DNA from: Ignavibacteriae bacterium HGW-Ignavibacteriae-1
GTDB lineage: Bacteria > Bacteroidota > Ignavibacteria > Kapaibacteriales > UBA2268
Direction: 5' to 3'
NCBI GenBank assembly: GCA_002839825.1
Contig: PGYU01000001.1
Span: forward strand, 310,001-374,000
DNA length: 64,000 bases
Position 1 is the first letter of the stretch. Each line of letters starts with the position of its first letter. The position numbers and the translations under genes were made by a program. Shown here piece after piece: positions 2,349 through 32,979 of the stretch. The notes beneath the pieces are model-generated. The model worked only from the letters and a program-made list of their open reading frames with translations. It ran no database searches and had not been told where the DNA came from.

Positions 2349-2786
2349 TTACCTTGAAATTATAAATTTCTCAACATCCCTGAAATTTCTGCCAATCAAT
2401 ACACACAGATAAACTCCGTTGGGTAACTTGCTGACATTAAATTCATATATGGCTTCGTCAGTAGTTTGAATGCCTTTTTGGACAACTTTCAATACTTCCT
2501 TCCCCAACATATTATAAATCGCTATGTCAATTTCACTATCTTTATCCTTCAATGCTACCTTCACATTGTAAGCGTCATTGCTGTTCCAGATATTGACAAT
2601 ACTATTTGTCGTTACAGTATCATTTTCGACACCTTCTGCAAGGGGCATCTCAGTTGACTGATAATCAACAAACTTTGTCTCACGATTGAGTTTGGGGTCG
2701 TTTGTTCCATATGCAAATAGAGAATTATTAGAGCTGAATAATAGCAGGATTGATAAAAAAGCTAAATTTAGAATTCTATTCTTCAT
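2349..2786 (-). CDS. very small secreted protein with T9SS C-terminal sorting domain
   Basis: A 145-residue protein with a signal peptide (MKNRILNLAFLSILLLF, cleavage likely after the SLFA stretch), a ~45-residue linker, and a C-terminal module matching the T9SS type A sorting fold: a beta-rich region with YNMLGKEV and PNGVY motifs, ending KFIISR. Almost the whole mature protein is the sorting domain. The ATG at 2786 is preferred over an in-frame upstream start at 2912 because it begins exactly at the signal peptide. It is opposite in direction to its neighbours. It could be a minimal surface protein or the remnant of a larger T9SS cargo gene; function unknown. Confidence 0.75.
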   Translation of the reverse strand: MKNRILNLAFLSILLLFSSNNSLFAYGTNDPKLNRETKFVDYQSTEMPLAEGVENDTVTTNSIVNIWNSNDAYNVKVALKDKDSEIDIAIYNMLGKEVLKVVQKGIQTTDEAIYEFNVSKLPNGVYLCVLIGRNFRDVEKFIISR

Positions 2787-3094
2787 TGTTATTTTGATTT
2801 TGAAATATTTTGAAATTCTCTCGAAATACTTTTCATCTTTCAATAAACGTTCAATTGCTTGTTTAGTTTCAAGCCCTCCCTTTTCTATACCGAAATTTTT
2901 TTGCAATATCATTCAAGAATGCTCTATTGTCAATAAAAGTACTATAAAAAAACTATGCCAAATAATGCTTTTCTCTATTTTCAATTACTTAAATGGAATA
3001 CTTAAGAAACATCAATTTATTAACAAATTATTCAATCTCGATTAATTTTCGTAATTTTGGACTTAGTAAATTTTCGCTCTACAAAATAATAAAA
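2787..3094. other. divergent intergenic region, no gene seen
   Basis: About 308 bases lie between the start of the small T9SS-tagged gene (leftward) and the transketolase N-subunit (rightward). Both reading frames can be extended into it (to 2912 and 2993), but the extensions carry no recognisable protein features. It presumably holds both promoters. I see no clear hairpin, tRNA or well-spaced Bacteroidota -33/-7 pair. Confidence 0.5.
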
Positions 3095-3976
3095 ATGGAT
3101 TTACAAATCAAATTTGAAGAAAAGATTTTCGAGAATAAAAGACGGGCACCCGATGAGTTCAAGATAATCGCAAATACACTCAGACAGGATATTATAAAAA
3201 GTTTGCTCTTAGCAGGTTCCGGACATAGTGGCGGACCTCTCGGTATAGCAGATTTGATGTCAGTTTTGTATTTTGGTGGATATATCAACTATAATCCGAC
3301 CGAACCCGAATGGAAAGATAGAGATAGATTTGTCTTGAGTGCGGGGCATATGGCTCCTATACTTTATGCAGTATTAGCACGTGCAGGGTATTTTCCGGCA
3401 GCAGAACTAGCAACTTTGCGGAAATTCGGCAGCCGATTGCAAGGACATCCCGGATTGGATGTCAAACTTCCGGGGATTGAAACTTCGTCCGGTTCCTTGG
3501 GGCAAGGTGTTTCTATTGCCGTAGGAATGGCTATGAGCCATAAACTTGTTGATAAAGACTCGAAGGAAGTTTATGCAATCACAGGAGATGGCGAACTCCA
3601 AGAAGGCATTTGCTGGGAAGCCGCAATGACAGCCGGAACATATGGATTGGACAATTTCTGTTGGATTGTGGACAATAACGATTGTCAGATTGACGGTAGA
3701 GTAAAAAATGTGATGAGTATTTATCCTATTAAGGAAAAATTCGAAGCATTTGGTTTCACCGTTTTTGAAATTGATGGACATAATATTGTCGAGATTATCC
3801 AAACTTTAGACAAATTCACTCGCTATCATGCTTTACGCAAAGGAAAACCTGTTTGTATAATCGCTAAAACTTATATGGGTAATGGCGTATCGTTCATGCA
3901 CGACAATTACAAATGGCACGGCAATCCGCCTAACAAGGAACAAGCTGCAAAAGCCTTAGAGGAACTTTCGAAATGA
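3095..3976 (+). CDS. transketolase, N-terminal (ThDP-binding) subunit
   Basis: N-terminal half of a split transketolase that moves two-carbon ketol units between sugar phosphates. The 293-residue product has GSGHSGGPLG at 41-50, RFVLSAGH near 79-85, and the thiamine-diphosphate/Mg motif GDGELQEG at 164-171 followed by the conserved Asn pair near 194. The ATG at 3095 is chosen over an in-frame upstream start at 2993 because family members begin only a few residues before this point. The partner C-terminal subunit is at 4669, separated by a lipoprotein gene that overlaps this stop (ATGATG). Two-gene transketolases are known in archaea and many bacteria; the interruption is unusual. Confidence 0.95.
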   Translation: MDLQIKFEEKIFENKRRAPDEFKIIANTLRQDIIKSLLLAGSGHSGGPLGIADLMSVLYFGGYINYNPTEPEWKDRDRFVLSAGHMAPILYAVLARAGYFPAAELATLRKFGSRLQGHPGLDVKLPGIETSSGSLGQGVSIAVGMAMSHKLVDKDSKEVYAITGDGELQEGICWEAAMTAGTYGLDNFCWIVDNNDCQIDGRVKNVMSIYPIKEKFEAFGFTVFEIDGHNIVEIIQTLDKFTRYHALRKGKPVCIIAKTYMGNGVSFMHDNYKWHGNPPNKEQAAKALEELSK

Positions 3977-27376: not shown

Positions 27377-27535
27377 AAAAATTCACCTAATTAAATATTG
27401 TTAATAATTGATTTCAAAATTTTCTAAAAATACGAAATTCACACGAGAAATTAACACCAAGTTGCATAAAAAATATAATTAATGTACATGGGTATTCGTT
27501 ATTGCTACTTTACTATTATTCAAACGGACATTTAC

Positions 27536-29287
27536 ATGATGAAGTATATTCTTTTGGTGCTGATTGCAATTTTGTTTAGTGCTTGTGGCGAAGACAACGT
27601 AACAAATAATTATATCGGTCACGACCGCACTTTTGTTTTGATTACCGATTACGACAGAAGTAGCGAATTAGTCATGAGCTTGTCCGGTATCGTAAATAAA
27701 GAATTCCCGAATGTTAAGTTCGAATATATTCAGACACGGAATTTTGACGTAGCCCAAGCTGCATACGTTTTGGAGCAAGCAAAAAAGAATTACCCTATCA
27801 ATACAGTATTTTTGTCAACAGTTGACGATGGTGATTCAGACAGAAATATCATTTTCAAAGTGGGCGACCAAGCCTTCATTTTGCCTGATAATGGTTTAGC
27901 TTCGAGGATTTTGGCAAATTATACTCACGGCGAAATCAGATATATTGACAATATGCTGCTATTCGACGGCAAACACAAGAGTATTGATGATGTCACCTTC
28001 TTCGAAATTTATAATTCATCGCTGAGAACTATTCTTTCACACGCTCCTCTAAACAGATTCGGCTCATTATGTACCGAACCTCAACTAAGACCTGTATATG
28101 ATGCTTACCGCAATGCCGGAAATATAATAGGGCAGAGCCTATATATTGACAATATCGGCAACGTGGAAACCAACATCCCGAGTGATTTATTATCAGGGAT
28201 TGAACTTGGTTCCATCTTGAAAGTGCAAGCTGGTGGCAGTACATTCTTCGCACGGTGGGCAACTACTTTTTCAAGTGTACCTGTTGGAGCCAATGTTGCA
28301 TTACTTGATGCGAATAACAAATTAATCCTTGCCGTGAATTTTGGTAATATGTCTGAGAAATACAGTCTAAATGCCGGAGATACAATTCAAATCTCGGCAG
28401 CGAACATTAAAGTTGGATTTTTGAGATACAATTTGTCCGAAATTTCAGGGAATATCATTCAAGGCACTAAAAATAGTATGCAAGAGTTTGGATTGATTAG
28501 CGGCAAAAATGTTGAATATATTGAGAAAAATGCCAATGGAGATGATTCGAGATTGCCAATATTATGCAAAGAATTGGTTGATTTGAATTGCGATATTATC
28601 ATTCCTGTTTCAACATCTGCATCCAAAGCGGCTGTCAATTACACACCTGCAAATATTCCGGTTGTCTATACTTATGTAACTTCACCCGAGTTTGCCGGAA
28701 TCCTCAATGCACGTGAAAATGTAACCGGATTATCGGATGCAACCAATTTTGATGATTATTTGAAATTCGTTAAAGAATTATTTCCCAATCTGACAAAAGC
28801 AGGTAGAATGTACAATCCGAATGAAGCAAATTCGCAATATGCTCAACAAAGGCTTACATCATTATCAGTGCTATACGGTTTGGAATTTACAAGTGAAGTT
28901 ATAGAAGATATTAGTCAAATCACACCGGCTTTGTCAACTTTTGAAAGCCAACAAATCAATACAATCTTAATCGCCGCAGACAATACTATGAATTTGGGGA
29001 TGAAGGATTTATCCCAAAATGCAATTGTTAAAAAAATGTATATAGTGGGCGATTCTCGTGAAAACGTTGAAGATGGCGCTATTGGTGGCGTTTCGGTTGA
29101 TTACGCTGAATTGGCAAAAGAAACCGGTATTTCGGCAATTTCAGTACTTTTAGGCATAAAAGCCGATGACATCGCTGTCAAATATTTGCCTACAACTCAA
29201 ATTTATTTGAATAAAAAGACTGCACAAGCATTAAATTTCACATTTTCTGATGATTTATTGAATAAAGCATCTTATATTGTAGAATAA
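27536..29287 (+). CDS. lipoprotein: SAM-hydroxide-adenosyltransferase-like domain fused to ABC substrate-binding domain
   Basis: A 583-residue predicted lipoprotein (hydrophobic segment 5-14, lipobox FSAC, Cys17). Residues ~31-288 match the DUF62/SAM hydroxide adenosyltransferase fold: FVLITDY start, TVFLSTVDDGDSDR, the ILPDNGLASR motif, then a C-terminal beta-domain with IDNIGNVETNI and NFGNMSEKYSLNAGD. Residues ~290-580 match the ABC_sub_bind family (TrpX/BMP-like), with IIPVSTSASKAAV, IPVVYTYVTSP and VTGLSD. Of the known catalytic triad (Asp68, Arg75, His127 in Pyrococcus PH0463) the Asp is kept (97), the loop to the Arg is one residue short, and the His aligns with Phe156, so the domain is probably non-catalytic. 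Start 27536 is chosen over a start at 27482 because it begins the signal peptide. The two domains together, and export, are unusual. Confidence 0.85.
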   Translation: MMKYILLVLIAILFSACGEDNVTNNYIGHDRTFVLITDYDRSSELVMSLSGIVNKEFPNVKFEYIQTRNFDVAQAAYVLEQAKKNYPINTVFLSTVDDGDSDRNIIFKVGDQAFILPDNGLASRILANYTHGEIRYIDNMLLFDGKHKSIDDVTFFEIYNSSLRTILSHAPLNRFGSLCTEPQLRPVYDAYRNAGNIIGQSLYIDNIGNVETNIPSDLLSGIELGSILKVQAGGSTFFARWATTFSSVPVGANVALLDANNKLILAVNFGNMSEKYSLNAGDTIQISAANIKVGFLRYNLSEISGNIIQGTKNSMQEFGLISGKNVEYIEKNANGDDSRLPILCKELVDLNCDIIIPVSTSASKAAVNYTPANIPVVYTYVTSPEFAGILNARENVTGLSDATNFDDYLKFVKELFPNLTKAGRMYNPNEANSQYAQQRLTSLSVLYGLEFTSEVIEDISQITPALSTFESQQINTILIAADNTMNLGMKDLSQNAIVKKMYIVGDSRENVEDGAIGGVSVDYAELAKETGISAISVLLGIKADDIAVKYLPTTQIYLNKKTAQALNFTFSDDLLNKASYIVE

Positions 29288-29313: not shown

Positions 29314-30939
29314 ATGAATTTCAATTTTGTGGTCTTTGCTGCACTTATTGTTTTATTTCTTGATATTAGATTTCTGAATTCGCAAGATTTGTTCGATACT
29401 GAGTACCTTTTTGATGATTTTCATTATACAAATTTCATCAATCCGGCACCTTTTTATTCATCCGGCTCAATATTTGGAAATAATCTTTGGATTACGCGCG
29501 ACGGAATAGTAAGCTCCCGTGCTTGGCAAGGTTATGTTTATCATGATTCAACTATGCAGCACCCGAGCACAACAATCAAATTTGATTCAGTTGGAGTACA
29601 ACTTATCCTCAATAAGGGGAAATGGGAGCCGCATCCACATCCATTTATTGTATCGAGTTTTTTATTCAGAGAAGGCACTTATGCCACGAGAATCAAACTC
29701 GAAGCATTGAAAGCTACCGACAAAATTATTCAAGCTTATTGGCTTTGGAGTAGCACTATATTTACATTCAAAGACGGTGACGATACCATCAGGTATTGGG
29801 CTGAGATGGATTTCGAGTGGAATAATGGTTGGTATCACGACACTCACCCAAGGATGAAAGCCGGATGTAATAATTTCACGGGCAGAAATGTATTAAACAC
29901 GGACTTGGATTGCATCTGCTACGATAATGGCAAGCTAACAGGATTTAAACAGTGCGTTGGGGAATACAAGTGGAGACCATTGATTGGCGATAGATGGATG
30001 ATTTATGTGATGCGAGTGGATAAATTAGGCAACAAAATTGCATTCGAGATTTTGAGTGACGAACCGGAACTCGATTACATCGTTTATTCAGGTGAATCAT
30101 ACAAATCTGATTCATGGCTCAAACCTTATACTATTAAAAATTACTACCCTCAGTATGAATTTCAGACTTGGTATTCTATGCACTCGCTCGGCGAAAGTCT
30201 CCAAAATGGAATAAAAGAAGAGCATAAACTCGAGATTGATTGGTTTCTCTACACCGCAAACCCGAGAACGAGCTTCAGCGAGATAAAATCGAAAGTTAAT
30301 GAATTGAAAGGAAAGAATATTTCTCGTATCAACACAACTTTTAAACCTTTATCAAATAATACAACTTCATTTGTAAATAATAATATTGCAATTTCTGGTC
30401 CTGACGAAGTATTTACTTGTGAAGTAGGTGTTTGGCATGTCCAACCGCTCTACAAAGGTCGAAATACATATAATCTCGATTATTCATATAGGGCATTTAT
30501 TAACGAAACACCCACCGAATGGTTCAACGTTTATAATACCGAAATGAAGATTAACATCAGCCCGCTTTACGACAGTCTTGAAATCAAACTTATTGCTACA
30601 GATGAATGGGAGAAACCTGCTGATACTTTAATTAAAAAAGTCAATGTCATAAAATTGGAAGATTGCTTCGATGAATCAAATTTAAAACTGACTCAAGTAT
30701 TTCCCAATCCGGTCAAAGATAACCTGAATATTCAATACTACAACGGCAATTCACTTATTACAATTTTTGAAATTTATGATTTTATGGGTAGGAAAATTTT
30801 CGATGAACAAGATAATAATTTGGTAAATATCGAACACCTCAGAAAAATCTCAACAAGTACGTTCGCTCAAGGAATTTATTACCTAAAGATTATCGGTGGA
30901 AATCAGAGTTTAATGCATCCGATTATAATCTTACGTTAG
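29314..30939 (+). CDS. secreted GH16-like concanavalin-fold protein with T9SS sorting domain
   Basis: A 541-residue protein with signal peptide (~1-23), a beta-jelly-roll region (~30-320), a ~100-residue linker domain, and a T9SS type A sorting domain (~455-541: VFPNPVKDNLNIQ, YDFMGRKIF, AQGIYYLKI, ending IIILR). In the jelly roll, AEMDFEW (about 168-174) fits the ExDxE catalytic pattern of GH16 glucanases, and TYATRIKL and aromatic-rich strands fit the fold. Likely a surface or extracellular polysaccharide-active or polysaccharide-binding protein; substrate unknown. It follows the fusion lipoprotein by 26 bases, so the two may share a transcript. Confidence 0.75.
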   Translation: MNFNFVVFAALIVLFLDIRFLNSQDLFDTEYLFDDFHYTNFINPAPFYSSGSIFGNNLWITRDGIVSSRAWQGYVYHDSTMQHPSTTIKFDSVGVQLILNKGKWEPHPHPFIVSSFLFREGTYATRIKLEALKATDKIIQAYWLWSSTIFTFKDGDDTIRYWAEMDFEWNNGWYHDTHPRMKAGCNNFTGRNVLNTDLDCICYDNGKLTGFKQCVGEYKWRPLIGDRWMIYVMRVDKLGNKIAFEILSDEPELDYIVYSGESYKSDSWLKPYTIKNYYPQYEFQTWYSMHSLGESLQNGIKEEHKLEIDWFLYTANPRTSFSEIKSKVNELKGKNISRINTTFKPLSNNTTSFVNNNIAISGPDEVFTCEVGVWHVQPLYKGRNTYNLDYSYRAFINETPTEWFNVYNTEMKINISPLYDSLEIKLIATDEWEKPADTLIKKVNVIKLEDCFDESNLKLTQVFPNPVKDNLNIQYYNGNSLITIFEIYDFMGRKIFDEQDNNLVNIEHLRKISTSTFAQGIYYLKIIGGNQSLMHPIIILR

Positions 30940-31404: not shown

Positions 31405-32979
31405 TTACCTTGGTGTCAGTTGCACAACCGGGCAAATCATTTCTTCCATCGAAATGCCGCCATGTTGGAAACTGTCACGATATTTATTCAAATAATGATG
31501 ATAATCAGTCGGATAAACGAAATAATAATCTTCTTTAGCTATGATATTGTTCACTGTTATTCCGTGAGCCGGCAGTTTGTAATCTTCTGGTCGAGCAATT
31601 TGCATTGCATATCTTGATTCAGCCTTTACGTTTTTGCCGAATTTATATCGTAAGTTTGTTGATGTATCGCGGTCACCCAACACTTTAACACCACGCATAC
31701 ACCGTACAGAACCATGGTCTGTGGTTATGAGTATGCTGATGTCTTTTTGCTTAGATAATGCTTTGAGCATACCGAAAAAGCTTGAATGCCGAAACCATGA
31801 ACGAGTCAACGAGCGATAAGCCGATTCGTCGGGCGCAATTTCCTTCAAAATAGCATAATCAGAACGCGAATGTGCAATCATATCAACAGCATTTAATACA
31901 AATGCGTTCAAATGATTTTGGGTATATTGCATTATGTCTCGCTCGATTTTTTGACCGAATTCAGTATCGAATATTTTGACATAACCGGGTCTGTTTCTTA
32001 GCTTAATTCTGCGTCTTTCAATCCAAGCTTCGAGCAATTCCTTTTCAAATGCATTGAGTTTATGGTCTTCACTATTTGTTTCAGAATTCCACCATTGTGG
32101 GTAATGCTTCTTGATTTCAATCGGATATAATCCCGAGAAAATTGAATTCCGGGCATATTGAGTTGCCGTAGGAAGTATCGTACAATAATAATTTGTCTTA
32201 AATGAATAATATGACGCCAAAAGCTCTTGCATTACAAGCCATTGGTCAAGCCTCAAGCAATCTACCACGAATATGAAAACTGTCTTAGATTGGCTTAGAA
32301 GAGGCTTTAAATAGGTATCCAACAGATGTGGTGAAAGTACAGGATCAGCATCTTCGTACTTTGCATCCAACCAATTGATATAATTACGTTCGATAAATTT
32401 TGAAAATTCTGCATTTGCATTGCGGAATTGGTCTTGCAATGTCTGAGTAAGTGTCGTATTTGGCATTCTGTCCAATTCCATAGACCATTGAACTAATCGA
32501 GTATATATTTCAACCCAATCCTTCCAATCAACTTGCCCAAGCATTTGGCGAGAAATTTCGTTGAATCCCATCAAATAATTTTGCGTAAATTTTTCCTCTT
32601 CGATTCTCGAAGATTCTATGAATTTCTTTGCAGCCATCAAAATCTGCGTTGGATTGACGGGTTTTGTCAAATAATCATCAATTTTGCTACCGATAGCCTC
32701 TTCCATAACGCTTTCAGCTTCATTCTTAGTGACCATCACAATCGGAGTAGTAGAGTCAATTTCTTTCAGAATCGGCAAAGTTTCCAATCCCGAAATTCCA
32801 ACCATTGATTCGTCCAAAAATATTAAATCGAAATGCTCTTGTTTCAGCATTTCTATTGCGTCTTCCCCATTGGTAGCAGTAGCGACATCAAAGCCGCGTT
32901 GGTTTAGTAATATGATATGAGGACGCAATAGGTCTATTTCGTCATCAATCCAAAGTATCTTTCCTTTGATTTTATCCAT
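31405..32979 (-). CDS. porX: PorX, T9SS response regulator with alkaline-phosphatase-like (PglZ) output domain
   Basis: A 524-residue two-component regulator. Residues 1-120 are a receiver domain (acidic pocket DD at 12-13, phospho-acceptor Asp56 in LIFLDES, Thr near 83, Lys near 107). Residues ~200-520 are a PglZ/alkaline-phosphatase-superfamily domain: IFVVDCLRLDQW (nucleophile region), LPTATQYARNSIFSGL, VLNAVDMIAHSR and ILITTDHGSVR with metal ligands, then HYPTDYHHYLN-like His-rich end. PorX partners with sensor PorY and sigma factor SigP to control T9SS in Porphyromonas; homologues show phosphodiesterase activity on oligonucleotides. Its presence agrees with the four T9SS-tagged proteins here. 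No porY in the window. Confidence 0.95.
   Translation of the reverse strand: MDKIKGKILWIDDEIDLLRPHIILLNQRGFDVATATNGEDAIEMLKQEHFDLIFLDESMVGISGLETLPILKEIDSTTPIVMVTKNEAESVMEEAIGSKIDDYLTKPVNPTQILMAAKKFIESSRIEEEKFTQNYLMGFNEISRQMLGQVDWKDWVEIYTRLVQWSMELDRMPNTTLTQTLQDQFRNANAEFSKFIERNYINWLDAKYEDADPVLSPHLLDTYLKPLLSQSKTVFIFVVDCLRLDQWLVMQELLASYYSFKTNYYCTILPTATQYARNSIFSGLYPIEIKKHYPQWWNSETNSEDHKLNAFEKELLEAWIERRRIKLRNRPGYVKIFDTEFGQKIERDIMQYTQNHLNAFVLNAVDMIAHSRSDYAILKEIAPDESAYRSLTRSWFRHSSFFGMLKALSKQKDISILITTDHGSVRCMRGVKVLGDRDTSTNLRYKFGKNVKAESRYAMQIARPEDYKLPAHGITVNNIIAKEDYYFVYPTDYHHYLNKYRDSFQHGGISMEEMICPVVQLTPR

Follow-up and report, generated by a model that had tools for sequence, protein, structure and literature searches.

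An exported fusion of a SAM hydroxide adenosyltransferase-like domain to an ABC substrate-binding domain in two bacterial genera

Background

The DUF62 enzymes, or SAM hydroxide adenosyltransferases (SAM_HAT), are usually stand-alone, cytosolic proteins, and the active site of the family sits between subunits. Excerpts of PMC4859513 describe the family members as homotrimers, give D68-R75-H127 as the triad of the hydrolases along with the motifs PxNGL and IDxxFGN, and report D16 and N215 as common to hydrolases and halogenases. The SAM-dependent halogenases lack the His-Arg-Asp triad, according to part of the text of PMC10491745, and the physiological role of the DUF62 enzymes is still debated (an excerpt of PMC12120602). 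Among the substrate-binding proteins (SBPs) of the ABC_sub_bind family, CD0873 is likewise a lipoprotein, and the excerpted text of PMC6816091 states that binders of Tyr, Phe and Trp hold the amino and acid groups of the ligand alike and differ at two places.

Here we describe a protein in which the two families are joined. Like the DUF62 proteins PH0463 and 2zbu (the latter uncharacterised, with the triad), it contains both SAM_HAT domains in order, with structural Z scores of 22.8–25.6 and with D16, PxNG and DxxGN retained; unlike them it is without the catalytic His and the HGRD block in all six known copies. It also departs from the usual stand-alone cytosolic form, having a lipobox Cys in 6/6 copies and an SBP attached. 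The halogenases FlA, SalL and ClA1 share the fold (Z about 22–23), but their halide-site residues are absent from the fusions. Its other half resembles the TrpX/CD0873-type proteins 3lft, 6hni and 3lkv in core residues and in structure (Z 37.5–38.2 over about 290 residues), whereas the fusion as a whole differs from them in its SAM_HAT module, in Tyr523 where the Trp type has Gln, and in that its gene is not flanked by permease or ATPase genes of the TrpX kind. The last relative, a PF02653 permease fused to SBP domains, belongs to the same SBP family and occurs in five of the six fusion genomes, but is a membrane permease, flanked in the loci read by STAS and ATPase genes, and has no SAM_HAT module.

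An intact fusion gene

The window is a 64,000-nucleotide stretch of contig PGYU01000001.1 of Ignavibacteriae bacterium HGW-Ignavibacteriae-1, and positions below are counted from its first letter unless a locus is named. The frame at 27536–29287 is uninterrupted for 583 codons and ends in a stop.

27536..29287, + strand: SAM_HAT / ABC_sub_bind fusion lipoprotein, complete gene, 583 aa (intact frame, Pfam matches and orthologues)
27536..27586, + strand: signal peptide with lipobox FSAC and predicted lipidated Cys17 (Cys present in 6/6 orthologues)

An alternative upstream start, ATG 27482, would yield 601 aa; the start at 27536 is preferred because the lipobox fits it. The one reverse frame translated at the same place is filled with stops. 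We take FSAC to be a lipobox, as had been proposed, and the conservation of its Cys in all six orthologues upholds that proposal. In a Bacteroidota-like organism, which is favoured here because a protein with a T9SS sorting tail adjoins the fusion in the window, a lipobox can also signal a cell-surface location, as an alternative to the periplasm of the original prediction. The residues after the Cys (GED, GEE, GDE, TEN, SDN and TEN in the six fusions) resemble just loosely the acidic surface-export signals given in the excerpted part of PMC5080379. One promoter-like site with an 11-of-12 match lies upstream of the gene at 27451–27479, in a scan that as a whole is at chance level (17 promoter-like sites seen and 17.1 expected; terminator-like sites, 2 and 2.0).

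Among 54 genomes of the family, six encode a full-length fusion: three belong to the window's genus (g1) and three to a second genus (g19). The corresponding counts were 6/123 in the order, 4/294 sampled in the class and 3/395 sampled in the phylum; these genome sets overlap, and the full-length hits everywhere belong to g1 and g19 alone. When named genomes were scanned for two peptide patterns, 29 stretches came up, three of which encode relatives (G001, G020 and G068), with the proviso that the scan needs exact patterns and divergent fusions could escape it. No PF01887 + PF04392 fusion was found outside g1 and g19 in the family, the order, the sampled class and phylum or the named-genome scan, none of 97 matching plasmid records covered 80% of the query, and the literature on exported DUF62 proteins, on DUF62 and on fused or SAM-sensing binding proteins held no such fusion among the matches listed. 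The original prediction knew of no such architecture; the search that it proposed for other proteins with both domains has now extended it to six genomes, the window's included, in two genera. The orthologues contain no internal stop and align with the window protein along almost the entire length, at 42–94% identity.

Two modules in one predicted structure

27635..27952, + strand: SAM_HAT_N (PF01887), residues 34–139 (Pfam, 58.3 bits; fold match)
28139..28390, + strand: SAM_HAT_C (PF20257), residues 202–285 (Pfam, 52.5 bits)
28400..29281, + strand: ABC_sub_bind (PF04392) domain, residues 289–582 in the model, Pfam match 307–579 (Pfam, 140 bits; fold match)

All three Pfam families exceed their curated cut-offs (26.3, 25.5 and 25.9 bits, respectively) in the window protein, and the two SAM_HAT families do so in 6/6 fusions; the absence of a PF01887 match, which had been named as grounds for giving up the idea, is thus not what we see (58.3 bits against 26.3). 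The NCBIfam models score below their cut-offs: TrpX reaches 150.5 bits (cut-off 390), and two equivalog models of SAM hydrolases stay far short at 44.1 bits (cut-off 470) and 33.9 bits (cut-off 350). The window protein is therefore a relative, not a member, of the families named there. Among solved structures, the top chains in a sequence search are 3lkv (1.9e-26), 2zbu (3.9e-24) and 3lft (4.4e-24), with 6hni also found.

AlphaFold models were computed for the window protein (pLDDT 92.0, pTM 0.83) and for its orthologue from G034 in the second genus (pLDDT 92.4, pTM 0.84), and their elements are nearly identical. The window model was built on alignment A3, in which the C-terminal tails of the stand-alone enzymes, wrongly set against the SBP part in alignments A2 and A4, had been trimmed, although some nine residues of these tails and a few at the N terminus were still misplaced; the G034 model was built on A6, which consists of the A3 rows in another order. 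The predicted model contains the N-terminal alpha/beta/alpha and C-terminal beta domains typical of DUF62. A structure search with VIA-align, using the window model alone of the two, matched the HAT half to 2zbv and 2zbu (Z 25.6), 2wr8 (23.4), SalL and FlA chains (22–23) and other family members down to 21.4, and the SBP half to 3lkv (Z 38.2; 1.9 Å, 292 residues), 6hni (37.5) and 3lft (37.5), the open form of CD0873 (6hnj) scoring lower than the closed forms at 31.8. The suggested AlphaFold check thus points to the expected identity of both halves in the predicted structure (Z 21–26 for DUF62 and halogenases, 37–38 for the TrpX/CD0873 type), and together with the Pfam matches and the lipobox it bears out the proposed exported SAM_HAT-like and ABC substrate-binding fusion.

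Two residues separate the last SAM_HAT_C strand from the first SBP strand (271 and 274 in the model), and the junction is gap-free in all five sequences of alignment A1. The pTM values above 0.8 suggest a fixed arrangement of the two halves. The fusion is real: an exported SAM_HAT domain is joined to an ABC_sub_bind domain, in two genera.

What is left of the SAM_HAT active site

In our alignment the triad of PH0463 falls at its published numbers D68, R75 and H127, and the following positions of the window protein correspond to known sites.

27647..27649, + strand: Asp38, equivalent of FlA Asp16 and PH0463 Asp7, conserved 6/6 (alignment)
27824..27844, + strand: Asp97 to Arg103 loop, shortened, with the Asp68 equivalent (Glu in one orthologue) and, six or seven positions on, a basic residue (alignment)
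27884..27895, + strand: PDNG motif, residues 117–120, adenosyl-site signature, P[DN]NG in 6/6 (alignment; motif from an excerpt of PMC4859513)
27995..28006, + strand: TFFE, residues 154–157, in place of the lost HGRD block, catalytic His absent in 6/6 (alignment; His column = Thr154)
28148..28162, + strand: DNIGN, residues 205–209, FlA Asp210 and Asn215 equivalents, conserved 6/6 (alignment)

The triad is incomplete in the fusions: the His is lost in 6/6, the Asp is present in five (Glu in one), and a basic residue stays (Arg in five, Lys in one). The loss of the His had been anticipated, at Phe156, a position off by one or two from the aligned Thr154. The Arg had also been read as changed, and Arg103 of the window protein indeed lies at Asp97+6 rather than the canonical +7, with the loop beyond the Arg position two residues shorter in all six fusions. 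Two orthologues, on the other hand, have Arg exactly at +7 and one has Lys at both +6 and +7, and once spacing is counted a basic residue is retained at or beside the Arg position; a lost catalytic Arg is too strong a statement and was rejected.

All 19 stand-alone relatives (17 from the family and 2 from the order) carry Asp, Arg and His, although they were picked by a motif filter that favours regular members; the alignment for contacts and columns omitted three of them (two shortened by a frame change, one divergent), leaving 16/16 with the triad. Two divergent stand-alone SAM_HAT proteins, at L059 (G064; Arg also gone) and L058 (second copy in G023), are without the catalytic His, so that its loss is not unique to the fusions. 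The HGRD block is present in a third stand-alone member added to the tree, from G007.

The adenosyl-site signatures fared differently from the His. D16, N215, PxNG and DxxGN (FlA numbers) are retained in 6/6 fusions, the Phe of IDxxFGN being Ile in the three g1 proteins. Among 28 columns invariant in 18 stand-alone proteins (the 16 relatives, PH0463 and 2zbu), eight are retained in all six fusions (D38, P117, N119, G120, G176, D205, G208 and N209) and 12 in none, the latter including (PH0463 numbering) His36, Thr125 and the FHGRD block. When the comparison is made with the ten FlA contact residues named in a figure legend of PMC3999930, the part of that paper used here, two of the ten (D16 and N215) are identical in 6/6. 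The Y77 position holds Asp or Glu (hydrolases have Asp), W50 is replaced by Phe, the S269 position has Ser in three fusions and Ala in the other three, Arg occupies the R270 position in one, and D21, S23, F156 and A279 are altered in all six. With two of ten contacts identical throughout, the adenosyl pocket is not preserved whole. The proposed degenerate nucleoside- or SAM-binding domain accordingly agrees with the data in its signatures and disagrees in its other pocket contacts, binding itself being a prediction.

Selection and ancestry

In g1 the three pairwise dN/dS values are 0.062, 0.070 and 0.103 for the HAT part and 0.077, 0.103 and 0.097 for the SBP part, and the fusion is under purifying selection in this genus. 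Between the g19 species the HAT part is 40–43% identical and the SBP part 54–62%, the HAT part changing faster; its dN/dS is 0.28–0.35 where computable, with synonymous changes near saturation, and we make no claim about selection there. The HAT domains of the window protein and of g19 are 33–36% identical. In the tree all fusion HAT domains form one group with support 100/100, on a stem (2.83 changes per column) so long that it obscures the exact source of the domain.

The g1 genomes contain no PF01887 match besides the fusion. In the g19 genomes a stand-alone SAM hydrolase gene survives that encodes the triad and is interrupted by a frame change, so the g19 fusion is not a simple replacement of the cytosolic enzyme.

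L050 2894–3671, + strand: stand-alone SAM hydrolase gene of g19 with ten-A run
L051 about 2492–3272, - strand: stand-alone SAM hydrolase gene of g19 with ten-A run
L071 about 3158–3938, + strand: stand-alone SAM hydrolase gene of g19 with ten-A run

The run of ten A occurs at the same place in all three genomes, just past the DxFGN motif; frame 0 ends at 208–209 aa and the remaining SAM_HAT_C is open in the +1 frame. Among eleven further stand-alone genes examined for this, the longest A runs are 5–8. The run may reflect slippage-controlled expression or homopolymer errors, the latter less likely in three genomes.

The substrate-binding half

29054..29056, + strand: Ser507, at the aligned specificity position that is Ala268 in 3lft, Ala246 in 3lkv and Glu263 in CD0873; 6/6 (sequence alignment; roles from an excerpt of PMC6816091)
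29102..29104, + strand: Tyr523, aligned with Gln284 of the Trp binder 3lft and Tyr262/Tyr279 of Phe and Tyr binders; 6/6 (alignment)

S359, T360, P384, G398, N432, N483 and Y523 recur in every fusion and in almost all of the 13 paralogue sequences listed. The Trp-specific Gln (Gln284 in 3lft) is absent, its place being taken by Tyr523 in 6/6 fusions, and a Tyr at such a position prevents Trp binding (excerpt of PMC6816091). From Tyr523 the ligand of the SBP half would be an amino acid, not Trp. No ligand is named beyond this because Ser507, whose register is uncertain by one in the paralogue alignment, is unlike the residue of all three known binders (3lft, 3lkv and CD0873).

Gene neighbourhood and transporter genes

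In 3/3 g1 genomes the fusion lies between a glycine C-acetyltransferase gene on the opposite strand and the gene for the T9SS-tail protein; names and Pfam matches of these neighbours come from the window, and those of G001 and G002 were recognized by similar sequence starts.

29314..30939, + strand: secreted protein with T9SS sorting tail, otherwise without a Pfam match, lying 26 bases downstream

The record L016 (G001) is labelled Desulfobulbaceae, yet the genome is grouped in the window's genus and has the same locus, and the label may be wrong. The window also encodes a protein that combines a response-regulator receiver domain with a PglZ domain (31405–32979, - strand), and a protein of like make-up adjoins the permease operon of G020 (L047 2493–4067).

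Each g19 genome has a different downstream neighbour: one encodes a TrkA-type ion channel protein, another a GH57 protein and the third an epimerase. Comparing the neighbours in the six genomes, we found no partner gene conserved between g1 and g19, and a conserved operon partner was rejected on these grounds. Importer genes directly adjoin the fusion in none of the six genomes. In G020 a MacB-type ABC gene set lies 2–5 kb upstream with two opposite-strand genes between; it is not a PF02653-type importer and is absent from the listed frames of the other two g19 loci.

Seven of eight genomes searched, including five of the six fusion genomes and excluding G034, encode a TrpY-like PF02653 permease fused to ABC_sub_bind domains, with one such domain in G024 and a tandem of two in G000, G001, G002 and G015 or three in G020 and G068. 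Their coordinates are as follows.

L045 2295–5129, + strand: PF02653 permease-SBP fusion
L060 3273–6107, - strand: PF02653 permease-SBP fusion
L047 5034–8777, - strand: PF02653 permease-SBP fusion
L052 5100–8861, + strand: PF02653 permease-SBP fusion
L048 1535–4372, + strand: PF02653 permease-SBP fusion
L049 57–2009, - strand: PF02653 permease-SBP fusion

In each of the six loci read, the permease is preceded by a gene of roughly 400–418 aa, for which a STAS domain was confirmed in 3/3 tested; in five it is followed by an ABC ATPase-like gene, the sixth locus stopping at a contig edge. PF02653 has no match in G034, a genome 98% complete in 6 contigs, where the sole PF04392 match is the fusion; with two per cent missing there is a small chance that a permease was lost from the assembly.

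Possible function

From the residues retained and lost, the fusion probably acts as a binding protein rather than a SAM-cutting enzyme. Our tentative choice, made with somewhat less than even confidence, is a non-hydrolytic, transporter-independent lipoprotein with two binding pockets. Its N-terminal module would be a SAM hydroxide adenosyltransferase minus the water-activating His, keeping the adenosyl-holding signature residues, and would bind an adenosyl compound such as adenosine, MTA or SAM without canonical hydrolysis, at a site on the subunit interface if the family trimer still forms. The C-terminal module, a TrpX/CD0873-like clamshell, would bind an amino acid, not Trp. Such a protein would be lipid-anchored and extracytoplasmic, its two binding modules closely joined and its place in the envelope a matter of prediction, and could serve as a stand-alone receptor or scavenger by capture, buffering, or signalling via a putative partner. 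It would not be an obligate ABC importer subunit. It is possible, if doubtful, that the protein is more specifically a trimeric membrane-anchored receptor that works independently of any transporter, its former active site occupied by an adenosyl compound, its clamshell by an amino acid, and the two coupled across the rigid junction.

The faster change of the HAT half in g19, the loss of the HGRD and DxTH blocks and the long branch that leads to the fusions in the tree (2.83 changes per column) could also mean that the SAM_HAT module holds no ligand and is a trimerising or spacing scaffold presenting three SBP clamshells, in keeping with the homotrimeric family described in the excerpts of PMC4859513. 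We regard this as rather unlikely, since adenosyl-site motifs are among the residues retained in 6/6 fusions despite the 33–36% identity between the HAT domains of the window and g19.

Transport offers another explanation. The fusion might be an accessory SBP of the TrpY-like importer that passes its ligand to the PF02653 permease, the SAM_HAT module being added for specificity or docking; the core SBP residues are retained, and the permease-SBP fusion is present in 5/6 fusion genomes with an ATPase gene adjoining where the locus was read. This seems unlikely to us given that G034 has the fusion while a PF02653 permease was not found there, that the fusion gene adjoins these genes in 0/6 genomes, and that the permease already bears one to three SBP domains. 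An accessory role beside the permease is possible in the five permease-bearing fusion genomes. An obligate role in uptake is argued against by G034, which retains the fusion without a PF02653 permease or any other ABC_sub_bind match; taken with the lack of adjoining importer genes in six genomes, this tells against the uptake component put forward in the original prediction.

Because Asp97 (Glu in one orthologue) and a nearby basic residue (+6/+7) remain in 6/6, some chemistry at the HAT site would still be possible, and the module might be an extracytoplasmic enzyme that acts on adenosyl compounds by a changed mechanism, through hydrolysis without His or with another nucleophile. Halogenases of the same fold function without the triad (excerpt of PMC10491745). 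In a profile search with the fusion HAT domain, the chlorinase 7ccg outscores PH0463 (74.4 and 61.1 bits), although the scores give no clean split of hydrolases and halogenases (2zbu 115.5, SalL chains 58–60, FlA 26.7 bits). We nevertheless consider such an enzyme improbable: the His is lost in 6/6, the FlA halide residues are replaced (T80 position D/D/D/V/S/R, S158 position F/F/F/Y/Y/Y), and to our knowledge no supply of SAM outside the cytoplasm has been described.

An assembly or frame-error artefact joining two genes, raised earlier for the region near 28400, has a negligible chance and was rejected, as the frame is intact and the same stop-free junction recurs in six genomes of two genera whose proteins are 42–94% identical over nearly the full length.

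If the two-pocket binding lipoprotein that we tentatively prefer is the correct reading, an exported, His-less SAM_HAT domain that keeps the adenosyl signature and is under purifying selection in g1 would show the fold put to a new use in binding, and would suggest that adenosyl compounds serve as signals or nutrients outside the cytoplasm. The fusion further provides an example, open to experiment, of a binding protein that occurs in a genome where no transporter of its customary kind was found.
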